From Gemmatimonadaceae bacterium (GTDB taxonomy: Bacteria > Gemmatimonadota > Gemmatimonadetes > Gemmatimonadales > Gemmatimonadaceae), in the NCBI GenBank assembly GCA_040882285.1, contig JBBEBQ010000008.1, positions 74,816 to 134,662 on the forward strand: a stretch of 59,847 nucleotides of DNA, given 5' to 3'. The stretch's first letter is position 1; each line of letters opens with the position of its first letter. Position numbers and translations under genes: made by a program. A model generated the notes under the pieces. It made no database searches. It was given only the letters and a program-made list of their open reading frames with translations, and was not told where the DNA came from. Shown piece by piece: positions 20,673-29,207 of the stretch.

Positions 20673-21428
20673 CTATAACGCCGGCGAAGGCAGCACTCCC
20701 CGCACGAGAAATTGCGTGCGCGGAAACGCGTGCGTGTCGCGCTTGAAGTAGCCGCCCGGCACGACCTCGACCCGCTCGCGCGACGCGAAGCAATACCAGG
20801 TCTCGAACGACTTCGGCTTCGCTGAGCCGAACGCCGACGGCGCGAACACACCAACGTTGATGCCGCCCGCCAGGTCACGGGCCGACGGATACTTGAAGAC
20901 CTCGACGCCCGCGCTTCGCATGGCGGCGCCAAGCGCCTGCGACGACGCGTAGCTCGTCGGCGAGGCGATCGCGCGGCGGTGCGCGTCGAACGGCGGAGCG
21001 GCGAGATCGATGCCGCGCGCGGTGCGCACTAGCGCGATGAATGCGGTGAGCGCGGTCTCGACTGTACCGAGCTCCGCTCCGGTTCCCTCGAGAAACAAGA
21101 GCCGGTAGTACGCAACTTCGGCGAACGCGCCGCGCTGCTCGATAGAGCCGTACCAGATCCCGCGCTCGCGCCGGCCGCCGAAGCGCGACCCGTGCGGCAG
21201 CGGCGGATAGCGGAACGGCGTGAACAGCAGATAATGCAGCCGCCCGCCGGTGCGATCGGGCGGCTTCACCCCGTCGATCAGCTCCTCCAGCAGCGCCTGC
21301 TCCTCGGCGGAGTCCACGAGCTTGCGAGTGGACACTTGATGCTGCGCTTCCACCACTCGCCAGGGCGAGAGGCGGAGCGGGCGTAGCTCAGAGTCGCCCG
21401 CGCATCGCGTCCAGATATTGGATGACAT
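20673..21428 (-). CDS. RES domain toxin (NAD+-consuming)
   Basis: 251 residues. The RES-domain hallmarks are visible: PWRVVEAQ at the N-terminus, GGRRERGIWYGSIEQRGAFA with Arg-Tyr-Glu active-site residues, and PTSYASSQALG carrying the Ser. Family members (MbcT, ParT, Res) inactivate NAD+ or modify proteins with ADP-ribose. The gene overlaps the antitoxin by 41 bp, which is typical of the pair. An unusually long N-terminus may mean a later start, but no good codon is seen. Confidence 0.88.
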   Translation of the reverse strand: MSSNIWTRCAGDSELRPLRLSPWRVVEAQHQVSTRKLVDSAEEQALLEELIDGVKPPDRTGGRLHYLLFTPFRYPPLPHGSRFGGRRERGIWYGSIEQRGAFAEVAYYRLLFLEGTGAELGTVETALTAFIALVRTARGIDLAAPPFDAHRRAIASPTSYASSQALGAAMRSAGVEVFKYPSARDLAGGINVGVFAPSAFGSAKPKSFETWYCFASRERVEVVPGGYFKRDTHAFPRTQFLVRGVLPSPAL

Positions 21429-21771
21429 CTACGAGTCCCTCGACGGTGCGGATGCGATCGGCGGGGACGCCGCCGAGGTGGTCGTTGTCGGCGTGCAGCC
21501 ACGCTCTCGCTTTGTCGTCGTCGCCGCCGACGAGCGCGTCGAGCGAGCGGTACAGGCGCAGGAAGAGCAGGGCGAGCTCGCCTTCCTTTCCGTCCGGGTC
21601 GAGTTCCCGCCCGCTTCGCAGCCGCGATACGGACGCTTCGCTCGTGCCGATGATCTTCGCGAGCTGCCTGTTCCGGACGCCGAGCCGCGCTGCAGCAGAG
21701 ATCGTCGCCTTGGCCACGACCGAGGCAGGGTCGGCTTGGGAGGCCGGGTGGAAGAGAATGGAGTCTGTCAT
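21388..21771 (-). CDS. Xre/MbcA/ParS-type antitoxin of the RES toxin
   Basis: 127 residues. HTH at about 25-60 (LGVRNRQLAKIIGTSEASVS), then the DUF2384 toxin-binding domain (LALLFLRLYRSLDALVGGDD, then KARAWLHADNDHLGGVPADR), the defining fold of Xre-RES antitoxins. ATG 21771 is chosen as it directly follows the palindromic promoter region. It is expected to bind the toxin and to repress its own operon at the palindromes just upstream. Confidence 0.9.
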   Translation of the reverse strand: MTDSILFHPASQADPASVVAKATISAAARLGVRNRQLAKIIGTSEASVSRLRSGRELDPDGKEGELALLFLRLYRSLDALVGGDDDKARAWLHADNDHLGGVPADRIRTVEGLVDVIQYLDAMRGRL

Positions 21772-21777
21772 GCGATT

Positions 21778-21810
21778 GCAAGAATATCGCATTATTCTTG
21801 CATATGCAAG
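21778..21810 (-). promoter_or_regulatory. Promoter and double palindromic operator of the RES/Xre operon
   Basis: The minus strand has TTGCAT (21809-21804), 17 bp, TATTCT (21786-21781), then 9 nt to the ATG. The same DNA holds two overlapping palindromes: CTTGCATATGCAAG (21797-21810), perfect over 14 bp, and GCAAGAAT/ATTCTTGC arms (21778-21785, 21794-21801) with an 8-bp spacer. They cover -35 and -10, as expected for autorepression. Confidence 0.75.
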
Positions 21811-21830
21811 TTCGGCTCCCGGCTGGCCGC

Positions 21831-21883
21831 TTGACAGCCGCCGCAGGCGGATTAGGCTTAGAGCCAATAGACCGAATGGTCTA
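21831..21883 (+). promoter_or_regulatory. Promoter plus NemR-type operator
   Basis: TTGACA (21831-21836), 16 bp, TAGGCT (21853-21858), then the palindrome TAGACC-gaat-GGTCTA (21868-21883) overlapping the expected transcription start. TAGACC-N4-GGTCTA is the box bound by Escherichia coli NemR. It lies 14 bp before the TetR-family gene at 21898, so it is probably autoregulatory. Confidence 0.8.
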
Positions 21884-21897
21884 GTAATCGGGGTTAC

Positions 21898-22476
21898 ATG
21901 ACTAACGCCACCAAAATCCGCCTGCTCGATGCCGGTCTCAAAATGCTGCTCGAGCGCGGCTACAACGACATGGGAATCCAGGCGCTGCTCGACGCGACCG
22001 GAGCTCCCAAAGGATCGTTTTATCACCACTTCGCCGACAAGGAAGACTTCGCGCTCCAGGTCATCGACCGCTACATGCAGGCAGTCCACGCCGGCCTGGA
22101 TCAGTGTCTCGGCGACGAATCGCGGCCCCCGCTGGAGCGCGTGCGCGATTTCTTCGAGCGCTCGAGCGAGAAGTATGTGAAGGACGGCTCCATGGGATGT
22201 CTTCTGGGCGGCGTGGGCCAGGAACTGTCCGGGACCAGCGACGTGTTCCGGCGGAAGATCGAAGAGTGCTTCGAGGCGATCGCCGCAAAGATCGCCACCT
22301 GCCTCAGTGAGGCCTGCGAGCAGGGCGACCTTCCGGCCGGAACCGACTGCGAGCGGATGGCGGATCTGCTGATCGACTGTTGGGAAGGCGCCGCGCTCCG
22401 CATGCGGCTGCGGCGCGATCCTGCGCCACTAGAAGCGATGCTCGACTTCTATTTCCGGGCGGCGACGCCCGTGTGA
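21898..22476 (+). CDS. TetR-family regulator, NemR/AcuR-like
   Basis: 192 residues. HTH at about 20-48 (YNDMGIQALLDATGAPKGSF, then YHHFADKEDF). Cys101 in MGCLLGGVGQEL occupies the position of the conserved GCLLGN-type Cys of the NemR/AcuR group, which in NemR senses electrophiles and hypochlorite. A perfect NemR-type box lies upstream. Together they suggest control by reactive electrophiles or HOCl. No N-ethylmaleimide reductase or glyoxalase is adjacent; the cupin and methyltransferase downstream are the closest candidate targets. Confidence 0.88.
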   Translation: MTNATKIRLLDAGLKMLLERGYNDMGIQALLDATGAPKGSFYHHFADKEDFALQVIDRYMQAVHAGLDQCLGDESRPPLERVRDFFERSSEKYVKDGSMGCLLGGVGQELSGTSDVFRRKIEECFEAIAAKIATCLSEACEQGDLPAGTDCERMADLLIDCWEGAALRMRLRRDPAPLEAMLDFYFRAATPV

Positions 22477-23037: not shown

Positions 23038-23136
23038 CGATCGCGAACCATTGCGCGGTGGTTGTGACGTGAGTCGATGAGAATCGTAAAGTGAAAGAGA
23101 CAAGCCAACCGCGCAGGCATCTTGCAGGAGGACGAC

Positions 23137-23919
23137 ATGACTGAAGCTGTCGAAGCGCAGGCTTCGCTCGAGGCCGAGCTGAAGGACGAGATCCTTCGCA
23201 TGTATCAGGAGGTCGCGGACAATCCGCGCAGCGAGTTTCACTTCTATCACGGTCGAGAGGCCGCCGAGCTGTTCGATTACCCGGCGGACTGGCTGGATCG
23301 CGCGCCCGCCGAAGCGGTCGCGTCCTTCGCGGGCGTCGGCAATCCGCATCTCCGGAGCGACCTGAAGCCGGGCGAGACGGTGCTCGACCTCGGCAGCGGC
23401 GCCGGGCTCGATTCGATCGTGGCCGGCTGGCAAGTCGGTCCGACGGGAAGCGTGATCGGCGTCGACCTGAATCCGGCGATGTGCCGCAAAGCGCAAACCA
23501 ACGCCGCCGCCGCGGGCACTTCGATGGATTGCCGGTCCGGCAGCATGGAGGATATTCCGCTCCCCGACGCGTCGGTGGACGTGGCGCTGTCGAACGGCGT
23601 CATCAACCTCTCGTTCCGCAAGCGGCGCGTGATCGAGGAACTGTTCCGCGTCCTGCGACCGGGGGGCCGGCTGTCGATCACCGACATCGTCAGCGCCAAG
23701 CAGCTCTCGCAATCCATCGTGAACGACCCCAAGCTCTGGGCCAGCTGAATTGGCGGTGCTCTCCCGGAGGGAGAGATGTTCAGGCTGCTCGAGGAATCGG
23801 GCTTCAAGAAGGTCCGCTCCGCGGTCGTGCCGCGGTTCCGGTTCCGCAAGGAGTCGACTCAGTCGTCCGCCGAGGCGTTCGGCGTCAAAGCAGTGATGCT
23901 GACGGCCGTGAAGCCCTGA
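23137..23919 (+). CDS. SAM-dependent methyltransferase (ArsM-like), predicted selenoprotein with in-frame TGA
   Basis: 260 residues if the TGA at 23746-23748 is read as selenocysteine. SAM motif VLDLGSGAGLDSIVAGWQVG, then VIGVDLNPAMCRKA, LPDASVDVALSNGVINL and LRPGGRLSITDIV. After LWAS the TGA is followed in the same frame by IGGALPEGEMFRLLEESGF, up to VMLTAVKP and a TGA at 23917. Homologous ArsM-type enzymes have a Cys here (W-x-x-C-I-x-G-A), so Sec would replace the catalytic-type Cys. A stem-loop fitting a bacterial SECIS follows the TGA. The ATG at 23137 has AGGAGG upstream. If Sec is not inserted, the product is a 203-residue truncation. Confidence 0.78.
23749..23776 (+). promoter_or_regulatory. 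SECIS-like hairpin downstream of the in-frame TGA
   Basis: A perfect 7-bp stem CTCTCCC/GGGAGAG (23759-23765 with 23769-23775) closes on the loop GGA (23766-23768). The loop begins 17 nt after the TGA and opens with G. These fit the general rules for bacterial SECIS elements: a short stem, a small apical loop with G in its first two positions, and 16-37 nt from the UGA. Confidence 0.7.
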
Positions 23920-25712: not shown

Positions 25713-26620
25713 CGCTCGTACTTCTGACCGGCGCGACCGGATACGTCGGCGGACGACTGCTCTCCGTGCTCGAAGAGCGCGGACACCGCGTCCGCTGCGT
25801 CGCGCGGAAGCCGGAGAAGCTGACGCCCAAAGTGGGGCGTACGACGGAGGTCGTCGCCGGCGACGTTCTCGACCGCGCAAGCCTCGACGCCGCGCTGCGC
25901 GATGTGGACGCGGCGTACTACCTGGTCCACTCGATGGGCTCCGCGGGATCCTTCGAGAGCGAAGACCGCGCTGCCGCGCGCAACTTCGGCGAGGCCGCCG
26001 CCGCCGCGGGCGTGCAGCGCATCATTTATCTAGGCGCGCTCGGGAGCGGAGACGAGGAGCTGTCGCCGCATCTGCAGAGCCGGCACGAGGTGGGCGACAT
26101 CCTGCGGGAATCGGGAGTGCCGGTGATCGAGCTGCGCGCGTCCATCATCATCGGCGCGGGGAGTCTCTCGTTCGAGATGATCCGGTCGCTGGTGGAGCGC
26201 CTTCCCGTCATGATCACTCCGCGGTGGGTGAAGGTGCCGGCGCAGCCGATCGCGATAGACGACGTGCTCGAATACCTCGTGGCCGCGCTGACGGTTCCGA
26301 CGACGCGGAGCGCGACTTATGAGATCGGCGGAGCCGACGAGATGTCGTACGCCGACATCATGCGCGAGTACGCGCGGCAGCGCGGGAAGCCGTTGCGCAT
26401 CATCTCCGTGCCGGTGCTGACTCCGTTTCTCTCGAGCCTGTGGCTCAGTCTCGTCACGCCGGTGTACGCGCGAGTCGGTCGCAAGCTGATCGAGAGCATC
26501 ACCCACCCCACCGTCGTCCGTGACCCGGCCGCGCTGAGCGCGTTCGCCGTGCGGCCGGTGGGCCTCGAGGAAGCGATCCGCCGGGCGCTCGGCGGCTATA
26601 GATTCGACAACCACCCCTGA
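25709..26620 (+). CDS. NAD(P)H-binding protein, NmrA/NDUFA9-like atypical SDR
   Basis: 303 residues. Dinucleotide motif LLTGATGYVGGRLL at the N-terminus, VVAGDVLDRASLDAAL, HSMGSAGSFESEDR, and ELRASIIIGAGSLSFEMIR. No Tyr-x-x-x-Lys at the active-site position, as in atypical SDRs of the NDUFA9/DUF2867 group. The GTG start overlaps the GNAT-remnant stop. It opens an overlapping three-gene operon ending in a copper ATPase. Confidence 0.87.
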   Translation: MTLVLLTGATGYVGGRLLSVLEERGHRVRCVARKPEKLTPKVGRTTEVVAGDVLDRASLDAALRDVDAAYYLVHSMGSAGSFESEDRAAARNFGEAAAAAGVQRIIYLGALGSGDEELSPHLQSRHEVGDILRESGVPVIELRASIIIGAGSLSFEMIRSLVERLPVMITPRWVKVPAQPIAIDDVLEYLVAALTVPTTRSATYEIGGADEMSYADIMREYARQRGKPLRIISVPVLTPFLSSLWLSLVTPVYARVGRKLIESITHPTVVRDPAALSAFAVRPVGLEEAIRRALGGYRFDNHP

Positions 26621-27129
26621 TGCCCAACTCGCGCGCGATTCACTCGATTGCCGCCGCATGGATTCTTTCGGTCGCGTTCGACCTGTTCCTGCACGGCGGA
26701 TTGCTCGCGCGACTGTACATGGCGCCGAACCCGTTTCTCCTGCCGTTGGAGGAGGCGTTCCGCCGGATTCCGTTCGGCTACGCCGCCTTTCTCGGTCTCA
26801 CGATTGCGCTGTACTGGCTGCTCGCGCGGCTTGGCGTGCGTGGCTGGCGCGCGGGGTTGCGCTACGGAGTGATCGTCGGGGCGGTCGTGTGGGGCGCGTT
26901 GCTGCTGGGGATTTACTCGATCAGCCCGGCGCCTCCAACGCTGTTGATGGGTTGGTGGGTCGGTCAGACAGCGGAGCTGGGGCTCGCCGGCGCGGTGCTC
27001 GGCGCGGCGGCCGCGGGGACGCCCCTCAAACGCATCTGGACGGTCGTGTCTGTGGCGGCCGTGGCCTTCGTCATCGCGACGATCGCGCTGCAGTCGCTGG
27101 GGCTGGCGCCGGCGATGAAGGTGGGGTGA
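26620..27129 (+). CDS. Membrane protein of unknown function
   Basis: 169 residues with four to five membrane segments (about 8-25, 55-72, 82-105, 108-135, 143-162). The ATG shares a base with the previous stop and its own TGA shares a base with the ATPase ATG, so it is tightly coupled in the operon. No family recognised. Confidence 0.75.
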   Translation: MPNSRAIHSIAAAWILSVAFDLFLHGGLLARLYMAPNPFLLPLEEAFRRIPFGYAAFLGLTIALYWLLARLGVRGWRAGLRYGVIVGAVVWGALLLGIYSISPAPPTLLMGWWVGQTAELGLAGAVLGAAAAGTPLKRIWTVVSVAAVAFVIATIALQSLGLAPAMKVG

Positions 27130-29207
27130 TGGCGCCGCACGACCACCAGCAGCACGAGCACGGGCACGGGGCCGAAGCGGAGACCCGGCGGAAGGCACCC
27201 GCGGCCGCGGCCGCTACCCACGGCGCGCACGACAAGCACGACAAGCACGCGGGCCACAGTCCGGGAATGTTCCGCGACCGGTTCTGGCTGTCGCTGCTGC
27301 TCACGCTGCCGGTGATCTACTGGTCCGAGCACGTGGAGATGATCCTCGGATACCGCGCGGTGAGCTTCGCCGGCTCCGACTGGATCGCGCCGGTGCTGGC
27401 GACGGTTGTCTTCCTTTACGGCGGCCTCGTCTTCCTCCAGGGCGCGTGGCGCGAGCTGAAGGCGCGGCTGCCCGGGATGATGACGCTGATTTCCCTCGCG
27501 ATCGTCGTCGCGTTCGTCTTCTCCTGGGTCGTGCAGCTCGGACTCGTGGACGCGGAGCCGATCTGGTGGGAGCTGGCGACGCTCGTGACGATCATGCTGC
27601 TCGGCCACTGGATCGAGATGCGCTCGATCACGCAGGCGCAGGGGGCGCTGCAGGAGCTGGCCAAGCTGTTGCCGGACACGGCCACGCGCGTGACGGACGC
27701 GGGCGAGGAGCGAGTGCCGGTCAGCGAGCTGCGCACCGGCGACGTCGTGCTCGTCCGCCCGGGCGAGAGCGTGCCCGCGGACGGCGTCGTCCGGAAGGGG
27801 AGCAGCGATCTCAACGAGTCGATGATCACGGGCGAGTCGCGTCCGGTGAAGAAGCAGGAGGGCGACGAGGTGATCGCCGCGACGATCAACGGCGAAGGCG
27901 CGCTGCAAATCGAAGTCACGGGCACCGGTGACGACACGAAGCTTTCCGGCATCATGCGGCTCGTGGCCGACGCGCAGACCTCCAAGTCGCGAGCGCAGCA
28001 TCTCGCCGATCGCGCGGCGCAGATTCTCACCGGCGTGGCCATCGTTGCCGGCGTGGTCACGCTGGTGGTGTGGCAGCTGCTCGGCGCGTCCATCGATTTC
28101 TCGGTCGTACGTGTGGTCACGGTTCTGGTGATCTCCTGTCCGCACGCGCTCGGCCTGGCCGTGCCGCTGGTCGTCGCGATCTCCACCACGCTCGGCGCGC
28201 GCAACGGGCTGCTGGTGCGCGACCGGCGCGGACTCGAGGAAGCGCGCAACGTCGGCACGGTGATCTTCGACAAGACCGGCACGCTCACGCTCGGCGAATT
28301 CCGGGTGGTGCACATGGCGGTGGCGGAGGGCACGTCGGAAGACGACGCGCTCAGAATCGCGGCGGGGATCGAGTCGCAGTCGGAGCATCCGATCGCGCGC
28401 GGCATCGTGAAGACCGCCGAAGACCGCAAGCTCGCGCTGCCGGCGGCCGACGGATTCAGGGCGATCACCGGCAAGGGCGTGGCCGCTTCCATAGAAGGGG
28501 TGGAGTATCACATCGGCGGACCCGCGCTGCTCCAGGCGGAGGACGTACAGGTCCCCGACGCTCTCCGGGCCGCGGCCGATGCCGCCGCAGGCCGCGGACA
28601 GGCGGCCATCTATCTGGTGCGGGACCGCAAAGCCATCGCGATTTTCGCCGTGGCGGACGCGATCCGCGAGGAAAGCCGCGAAGCTATCCGCGCGCTGCAC
28701 GAGCGCGGGATCAAGGTGGCGATGCTCACGGGCGACGCGCAGGCGGTCGCCGACGCGGTGGCGAAGGAGCTGGGGATCGACACCGTGTTCGCGCAGGTGT
28801 TGCCCGAAGACAAGGCGTCCAAGGTGCGCGAGCTGCAGGCGGACGGAAGCAAGGTCGCGATGGTGGGCGACGGAGTGAACGACGCGCCCGCGCTCGCCAC
28901 GGCCGACGTCGGGATCGCGATCGGCGCGGGAACCGACGTCGCGGTGGAGGCGGGCGATATCGTCCTCGTGCGCTCAGATCCCCGCGACATCCCCAGGATC
29001 GTCACGCTGTCGCGCGCGACCTACCGGAAGATGCTGCAGAACCTGTGGTGGGCGGCGGGCTACAACATCGTCGCCATTCCGCTCGCGGCGGGTGTGCTCT
29101 ACTCGTGGGGAATTCTGCTGACACCCGCGGTCGGCGCAGTGTTCATGTCGGCGAGCACGGTGATCGTTGCGATCAACGCGCAGCTACTGAAAAGAGTGCA
29201 GTTGTAA
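27129..29207 (+). CDS. copB: Copper-translocating P-type ATPase, CopB type
   Basis: 692 residues. A His-rich N-terminus (DHQQHEHGHG, HDKHDKHAGH) replaces CxxC metal-binding domains. The ion-binding motif is CPH (VISCPHALGLAVPLV), the mark of P1B-3/CopB ATPases, rather than CPC. Phosphorylation site FDKTGTLT, ATP-domain SEHPIA, hinge GDGVNDAPAL. TGES actuator loop is ITGESRPV. It exports copper, probably Cu(II) or Cu(I) by family precedent. No Cu-responsive regulator is adjacent. Confidence 0.95.
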   Translation: MAPHDHQQHEHGHGAEAETRRKAPAAAAATHGAHDKHDKHAGHSPGMFRDRFWLSLLLTLPVIYWSEHVEMILGYRAVSFAGSDWIAPVLATVVFLYGGLVFLQGAWRELKARLPGMMTLISLAIVVAFVFSWVVQLGLVDAEPIWWELATLVTIMLLGHWIEMRSITQAQGALQELAKLLPDTATRVTDAGEERVPVSELRTGDVVLVRPGESVPADGVVRKGSSDLNESMITGESRPVKKQEGDEVIAATINGEGALQIEVTGTGDDTKLSGIMRLVADAQTSKSRAQHLADRAAQILTGVAIVAGVVTLVVWQLLGASIDFSVVRVVTVLVISCPHALGLAVPLVVAISTTLGARNGLLVRDRRGLEEARNVGTVIFDKTGTLTLGEFRVVHMAVAEGTSEDDALRIAAGIESQSEHPIARGIVKTAEDRKLALPAADGFRAITGKGVAASIEGVEYHIGGPALLQAEDVQVPDALRAAADAAAGRGQAAIYLVRDRKAIAIFAVADAIREESREAIRALHERGIKVAMLTGDAQAVADAVAKELGIDTVFAQVLPEDKASKVRELQADGSKVAMVGDGVNDAPALATADVGIAIGAGTDVAVEAGDIVLVRSDPRDIPRIVTLSRATYRKMLQNLWWAAGYNIVAIPLAAGVLYSWGILLTPAVGAVFMSASTVIVAINAQLLKRVQL

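Follow-up and report, generated by a model that had tools for sequence, protein, structure and literature searches.

Architecture of the methyltransferase gene and its surroundings

The window, meaning the whole stretch of 59,847 nucleotides that was analyzed, belongs to a 2.89-Mb genome of a soil-type Gemmatimonadaceae bacterium (27 contigs, 97% complete). On its forward strand, it carries a gene for a SAM-dependent methyltransferase of 260 residues at positions 23137 to 23919, with a selenocysteine (Sec) predicted at residue 204. This assignment follows from the translation, from Pfam, and from the best PDB matches, which are ArsM structures. A ribosome-binding site, AGGAGG (23126–23131, forward strand), lies 5 nt 5' of the ATG at 23137, and the SAM-binding motif DLGSGAG (residues 84–90, 23386–23406, forward strand) was located by translation and PDB alignment. 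The frame runs into a TGA at 23746–23748, stays open for 56 codons, and ends at a second TGA at 23917–23919, as the translation confirms for each of these points of the preliminary description. The mechanical list of open reading frames ends the methyltransferase at the first TGA, with 208 codons counted from an upstream TTG. Hence, the gene is truncated by automatic calling as had been expected, and the same holds for the genes of its wider clade.

The neighboring genes encode a cupin, a TetR regulator, and a DinB-like protein. An RES-domain toxin (20673–21428) overlaps an Xre/ParS-type antitoxin (21388–22089), both on the reverse strand, forming an RES/Xre pair (20673–22089) that adjoins the methyltransferase gene. 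At a greater distance, positions 26658–29207 of the forward strand encode a heavy-metal P-type ATPase whose N terminus is rich in His; because the listed start creates an overlap with an open reading frame at 26620–27129, the true start probably lies further downstream.

The stretch behind the first TGA behaves as part of a protein. Mismatch rates at the three codon positions are 0.24/0.13/0.45 after the UGA and hairpin and 0.73/0.75/0.74 beyond the second stop, a pattern indicating that the tail is translated; protein-type constraint is found on both sides of the UGA, up to the second stop. Pfam assigns the product to the class I SAM methyltransferases (Methyltransf_31/11/25). Its predicted structure (pLDDT 91) shows the ArsM type of this fold and matches best to CmArsM with As(III) (6cx6; Z 26.1 over 221 residues, 2.2 Å). 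The best solved relatives are ArsM proteins, and human AS3MT is also among the closest structures. Strands 224–230 and 251–258 of the model, the last two of the fold, come after the UGA.

The UGA codon and its hairpin across relatives

In the alignment with ArsM proteins of the PDB, the frame continues across the TGA, and a Cys falls onto it. Residue 204 hereby corresponds to the catalytic Cys224 of CmArsM and Cys206 of human AS3MT, bearing out the earlier placement of the codon (23746–23748, forward strand) at a conserved Cys of the family. An independent scan of public genome contigs gave 80 loci, mainly from Gemmatimonadota and Chloroflexota, with some members from several other phyla; the clade comprises Gemmatimonadota, Chloroflexota, Thermomicrobiota, Nitrospirota, Pseudomonadota, and Actinomycetota. 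The position is covered by 79 of these loci and reads TGA in 75, TGT in two, and TGC in two (the Cys-codon forms being L168, L187, L190, and L203). The preliminary description had named relatives with a sense codon other than Cys or Sec as evidence against Sec; the 79 covering loci contain none. Two relatives on haloarchaeal plasmids (L210 and L213) also carry a Cys codon, TGT, at this position.

Closer to the source, six orthologues were found among 179 genomes of the same family, five at 75 to 98% identity and one at 41%, each with one internal TGA; the next relatives are canonical ArsM proteins without it. A search of 395 genomes of the phylum with the pattern TGG-N6-TGA-RTN-GSN-GGN-GC, combined with the loci from the same-family genomes, yielded 51 distinct frames that read on through the TGA with methyltransferase sequence on both sides. 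A few further frames ran off the end of a contig or escaped the filter, and the many chance matches to the pattern, which had no methyltransferase frame, were discarded. Within the clade, no chalcogen other than Sec is conserved, and in bacteria that decode Sec, a Cys hardly ever takes its place. As a side observation, one genome (G180) contains two TGA-containing methyltransferase copies, L055 and L084.

Downstream of the UGA, a hairpin CTCTCCC-GGA-GGGAGAG occupies positions 23759–23775 of the forward strand, with a 7-bp stem and the loop GGA at 23766–23768. Both the stem and the loop had been described correctly, whereas the 17 nt, given as the distance to the start of the stem, in fact separate the UGA from the apical loop, and the stem already begins after 10 nt. 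The apical loop is also the point to which the bSECIS model measures (PMC13188914). This model demands a loop of 3 to 9 nt with a G in the first two places, a stem of 4 to 16 bp, a spacing of 16 to 37 nt, and a folding energy of at most −7.5 kcal/mol (PMC13188914), and the hairpin conforms in its loop, stem, and spacing as well as in its energy of −10.2 kcal/mol. By itself, it is weak evidence and not significant: in single-sequence folding, its energy is no better than that of shuffled sequences (z = 0.18), a rule-conforming hairpin follows 11% of all TGAs in the window, and an equally strong one follows 4%. Rfam gives no match at the hairpin.

What raises the hairpin above chance is conservation, namely the TGA in 75 of 79 loci together with compensatory change in the stem. 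The spacing is likewise constant, with the loop 17 nt behind the UGA. Across 97 distinct sequence segments, the inner eight pairs are 90% paired; slid partners reach 43 to 60%, and none of 500 shuffles exceeds 83%. Stem pair 13–29 is C-G in 89 cases and G-C in seven; stem pair 17–25 is C-G in 55, G-C in 35, and T-A in two. The latter joins the third base of a Leu codon to the second base of a downstream codon, and the codon pairs CTC with GGA (55) and CTG with GCA (32) are never crossed, all 87 being matched. Which of the synonymous Leu codons is used goes with the pairing base in the RNA and not with the protein. In proteobacterial members, the stem is a different one, with a CGTG(C/T) loop at almost the same place; L141, L164, L200, and L207 have hairpins that the simple rule rates as weak. 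No comparable hairpin follows the Cys codon in L168, L187, L190, and L203, and canonical Cys ArsM relatives show merely scattered hairpins. The hairpin, with its compensatory changes, is therefore kept in the Sec forms and lacking in the Cys forms. The earlier argument that frame, context, and hairpin are unlikely to coincide by chance holds by virtue of the conserved TGA and the covariation but not for the hairpin taken alone.

Selenocysteine machinery and the reading of the UGA

The genes for Sec insertion, proposed earlier as a check, are all present in the source genome: SelA (566 bits), SelB (336 bits in all, in an open frame of 622 aa), SelD (374 bits), and tRNA-Sec with the anticodon UCA (68.6 bits). 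The SelD gene (L048, G000:C6:124283-125203) is likewise interrupted by an in-frame UGA, which lies at the Cys/Sec site of the protein, ARCAG-U-ASKMGPG, and is followed by a hairpin that places a 3-nt loop 18 nt from the UGA. The genome thus holds a second, well-known type of selenoprotein with the same layout. The SelD gene is located approximately 100 bp upstream of the tRNA-Sec gene. Among 40 tested genomes with the TGA gene, tRNA-Sec was found in 36; in the other four, it was not found above the cut-off, and all four have SelA. As most Gemmatimonadota have tRNA-Sec, and about 30 of 40 genomes without the gene have it too, its co-occurrence with the TGA gene is non-discriminating and weak evidence.

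Taken by the default bacterial code, the open reading frame ends at 23748, and the UGA would be a real stop behind a truncated methyltransferase of 203 residues, or a pseudogene, with the remainder as a decaying remnant. This is highly improbable given a TGA that 75 of 79 loci from several phyla retain, downstream codons that evolve as coding sequence, and a fold that takes its last two strands from the stretch behind the UGA. Still more remote is a UGA read as another amino acid, either in a reassigned code or by read-through with Trp or Cys, for which the open frame speaks and nothing more: the gene's own final stop is TGA, relatives have TGA or Cys codons only and never Trp, the hairpin covaries in TGA forms only, and the genome has the full set of Sec genes. 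On the strength of the TGA in 75 loci and of the gene's own TGA stop, a reassigned code, a pseudogene, and an error of sequencing were all rejected. From comparative sequence evidence, the gene almost certainly encodes a genuine selenoprotein, with UGA 23746–23748 read as Sec. Insertion would be accomplished by SelB, tRNA-Sec(UCA), and the SECIS hairpin that begins 10 nt after the codon; judging from what is known of the family, SelB would pause the ribosome at the hairpin and insert Sec.

Relation to ArsM and to known selenoproteins, and possible function

Compared with ArsM and human AS3MT (CmArsM 4fr0 and 6cx6, CrArsM 5evj, AS3MT 8xt7), the window protein has the fold, the SAM site, and the Cys224 position in common. 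It differs by having no C-terminal extension and, relative to CmArsM, by Val67 in place of Cys72 (codon 23335–23337, forward strand, aligned with 5evj/4fr0), Gly154 in place of Cys174 (23596–23598, forward strand; SNG for SNC), and the predicted Sec204 in place of Cys224. The As(III)-binding residues Cys72 and Cys174 are hence absent. These replacements are features of the clade—the motif F-A-G-V/T-G-N-P occupies the Cys72 region in nearly all members, and in a 28-sequence alignment, Gly154 is invariant, with Sec/Cys204 as the sole invariant chalcogen position. In the tree, a split with 100/100 support sets the SNG clade apart from the canonical SNC-type ArsM found in the same family of bacteria, whose genomes encode such an ArsM separately. 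The best NCBIfam model, arsM NF008823, scores the window protein at 204.8 bits, below its cut-off of 263. Nine other clade members, comprising Sec and Cys forms, likewise score below it, and a partial canonical SNC relative scores 301. For the window protein, the label "arsenite methyltransferase" is therefore doubtful on sequence grounds. The preliminary description as an ArsM-like methyltransferase stands for the fold and the Cys224 site; a functional label of ArsM is softer with two of the three As(III)-binding cysteines missing.

Sec-containing arsenite S-adenosylmethyltransferases were represented by eight sequences in the GOS survey of 2008 (PMC2398784) and were found in 39 organisms by 2016 (PMC5029168); a review from 2026 lists their UxxG motif together with three fused families (PMC13188914). 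The window protein shares with this known group (PRK11873/NF008823; PMC2398784, PMC13188914) the Sec within UxxG at the catalytic Cys. A gene annotated as arsM on the Paraclostridium bifermentans plasmid NZ_CP094934.1 (L214) carries its UGA in frame at the corresponding site. This candidate Sec-ArsM, however, keeps both partner cysteines (GLGCGNP and SNC), whereas these motifs read GVGNP and SNG in the window clade, which stays below the NF008823 cut-off. The families NF041537 (ArsM_AhpD_UU), NF041536 (ArsM_DUF2284_UU), and NF047649 (MTase_UXPK_star) contain the same methyltransferase domain with Sec at UxxG, but their members are double or triple selenoproteins to which another domain is fused. 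The window protein stands alone and has a single Sec; it ends 56 residues after this Sec with no fused second domain, and its scores lie far below the respective cut-offs (198.8/510, 176.8/575, and 179.2/460 bits). Changing Gly154 or Val67 to Cys lowers the score in all three fusion models and raises the arsM score. Judging by these model scores, the fusion families seem to be SNG/V proteins of the Sec-only kind. The window protein is, as its predicted Sec implies, a free-standing member of an already catalogued kind of selenoprotein. Its branch is a new, widespread, and large one as judged from the predicted members, which no NCBIfam model captures at cut-off in those tested.

The neighborhood of the gene varies: no fixed operon is seen across loci, and none is conserved in Gemmatimonadota. 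A scan of the genes flanking the window gene revealed no ars genes. A rhodanese/metallo-β-lactamase protein is encoded near the Sec methyltransferase in eight loci (L151, L152, L154, L133, L144, L188, L199, and L205), being directly downstream in the three related Gemmatimonadota L151, L152, and L154. An MFS carrier is found near the gene in nine loci, including most of these eight, and ArsR-rhodanese proteins are found in three. In the haloarchaeal plasmids L210 and L213, the SNG-clade Cys form lies immediately behind an OsmC-family gene, and a MarR-type regulator is encoded upstream.

Sec204 would be the single active-site chalcogen of a free-standing ArsM-fold methyltransferase, its selenolate replacing the three-cysteine cage of ArsM. 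As the likeliest mechanism, if with less than even likelihood, this selenolate could take the role of Cys224 in ArsM and position a soft metalloid substrate near the methyl group that SAM donates. As the partner cysteines are gone, such a substrate would need a single protein ligand, rather than being free arsenite. A dimethylated or thiol-capped arsenical, for example DMA(III), which binds a single thiol (PMC3877260), or another metalloid or chalcogen compound might fit.

An ordinary arsenite methyltransferase, converting iAs(III) to MMA and DMA with glutathione or small-molecule thiols in place of the lost cysteines, is unlikely, even though ArsM and human AS3MT are the closest solved structures and both NCBIfam and reviews file ArsM-like Sec proteins there. 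CmArsM requires Cys72, Cys174, and Cys224 for arsenite, and its C174A variant is dead for arsenite and MMA alike (PMC3877260). The partner sites in the clade are Val/Thr and Gly, and a separate canonical SNC-type ArsM exists in the same family of genomes. The missing equivalents of Cys72 and Cys174, the 204.8 of 263 bits, and the lack of a nearby ars operon argue against an arsenic role. It is possible, if tentative, that the selenoprotein acts on a non-metalloid substrate—a thiol, a persulfide, or a soft organic nucleophile—and that Sec serves as the nucleophile or as a redox switch. The rhodanese/metallo-β-lactamase proteins, resembling those of persulfide dioxygenases, and the MFS carriers near some loci are consistent with this, as are the ArsR-rhodanese proteins, the OsmC gene just before the haloarchaeal Cys forms, and the NCBI-curated fusions with AhpD-like and DUF2284 domains. 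Such neighbors, however, occur in a minority of loci and form no conserved operon in Gemmatimonadota. A more far-reaching suggestion from sequence, which we regard as rather doubtful, is that the multi-phylum clade performs a new kind of selenium-dependent methyl transfer, one that would work poorly with sulfur and whose substrate would not be arsenite.

Whereas the majority of known selenoproteins are oxidoreductases, selenium would here occupy a methyl-transfer site by itself. A comparison with Sec/Cys ArsM proteins, which keep all three arsenic ligands, would provide a clean test of the contribution of selenium. A copy of the gene is present in a cultured type strain, Actinomycetospora cinnamomea DSM 45771 (L200), which makes the use of selenium in such a site directly testable.
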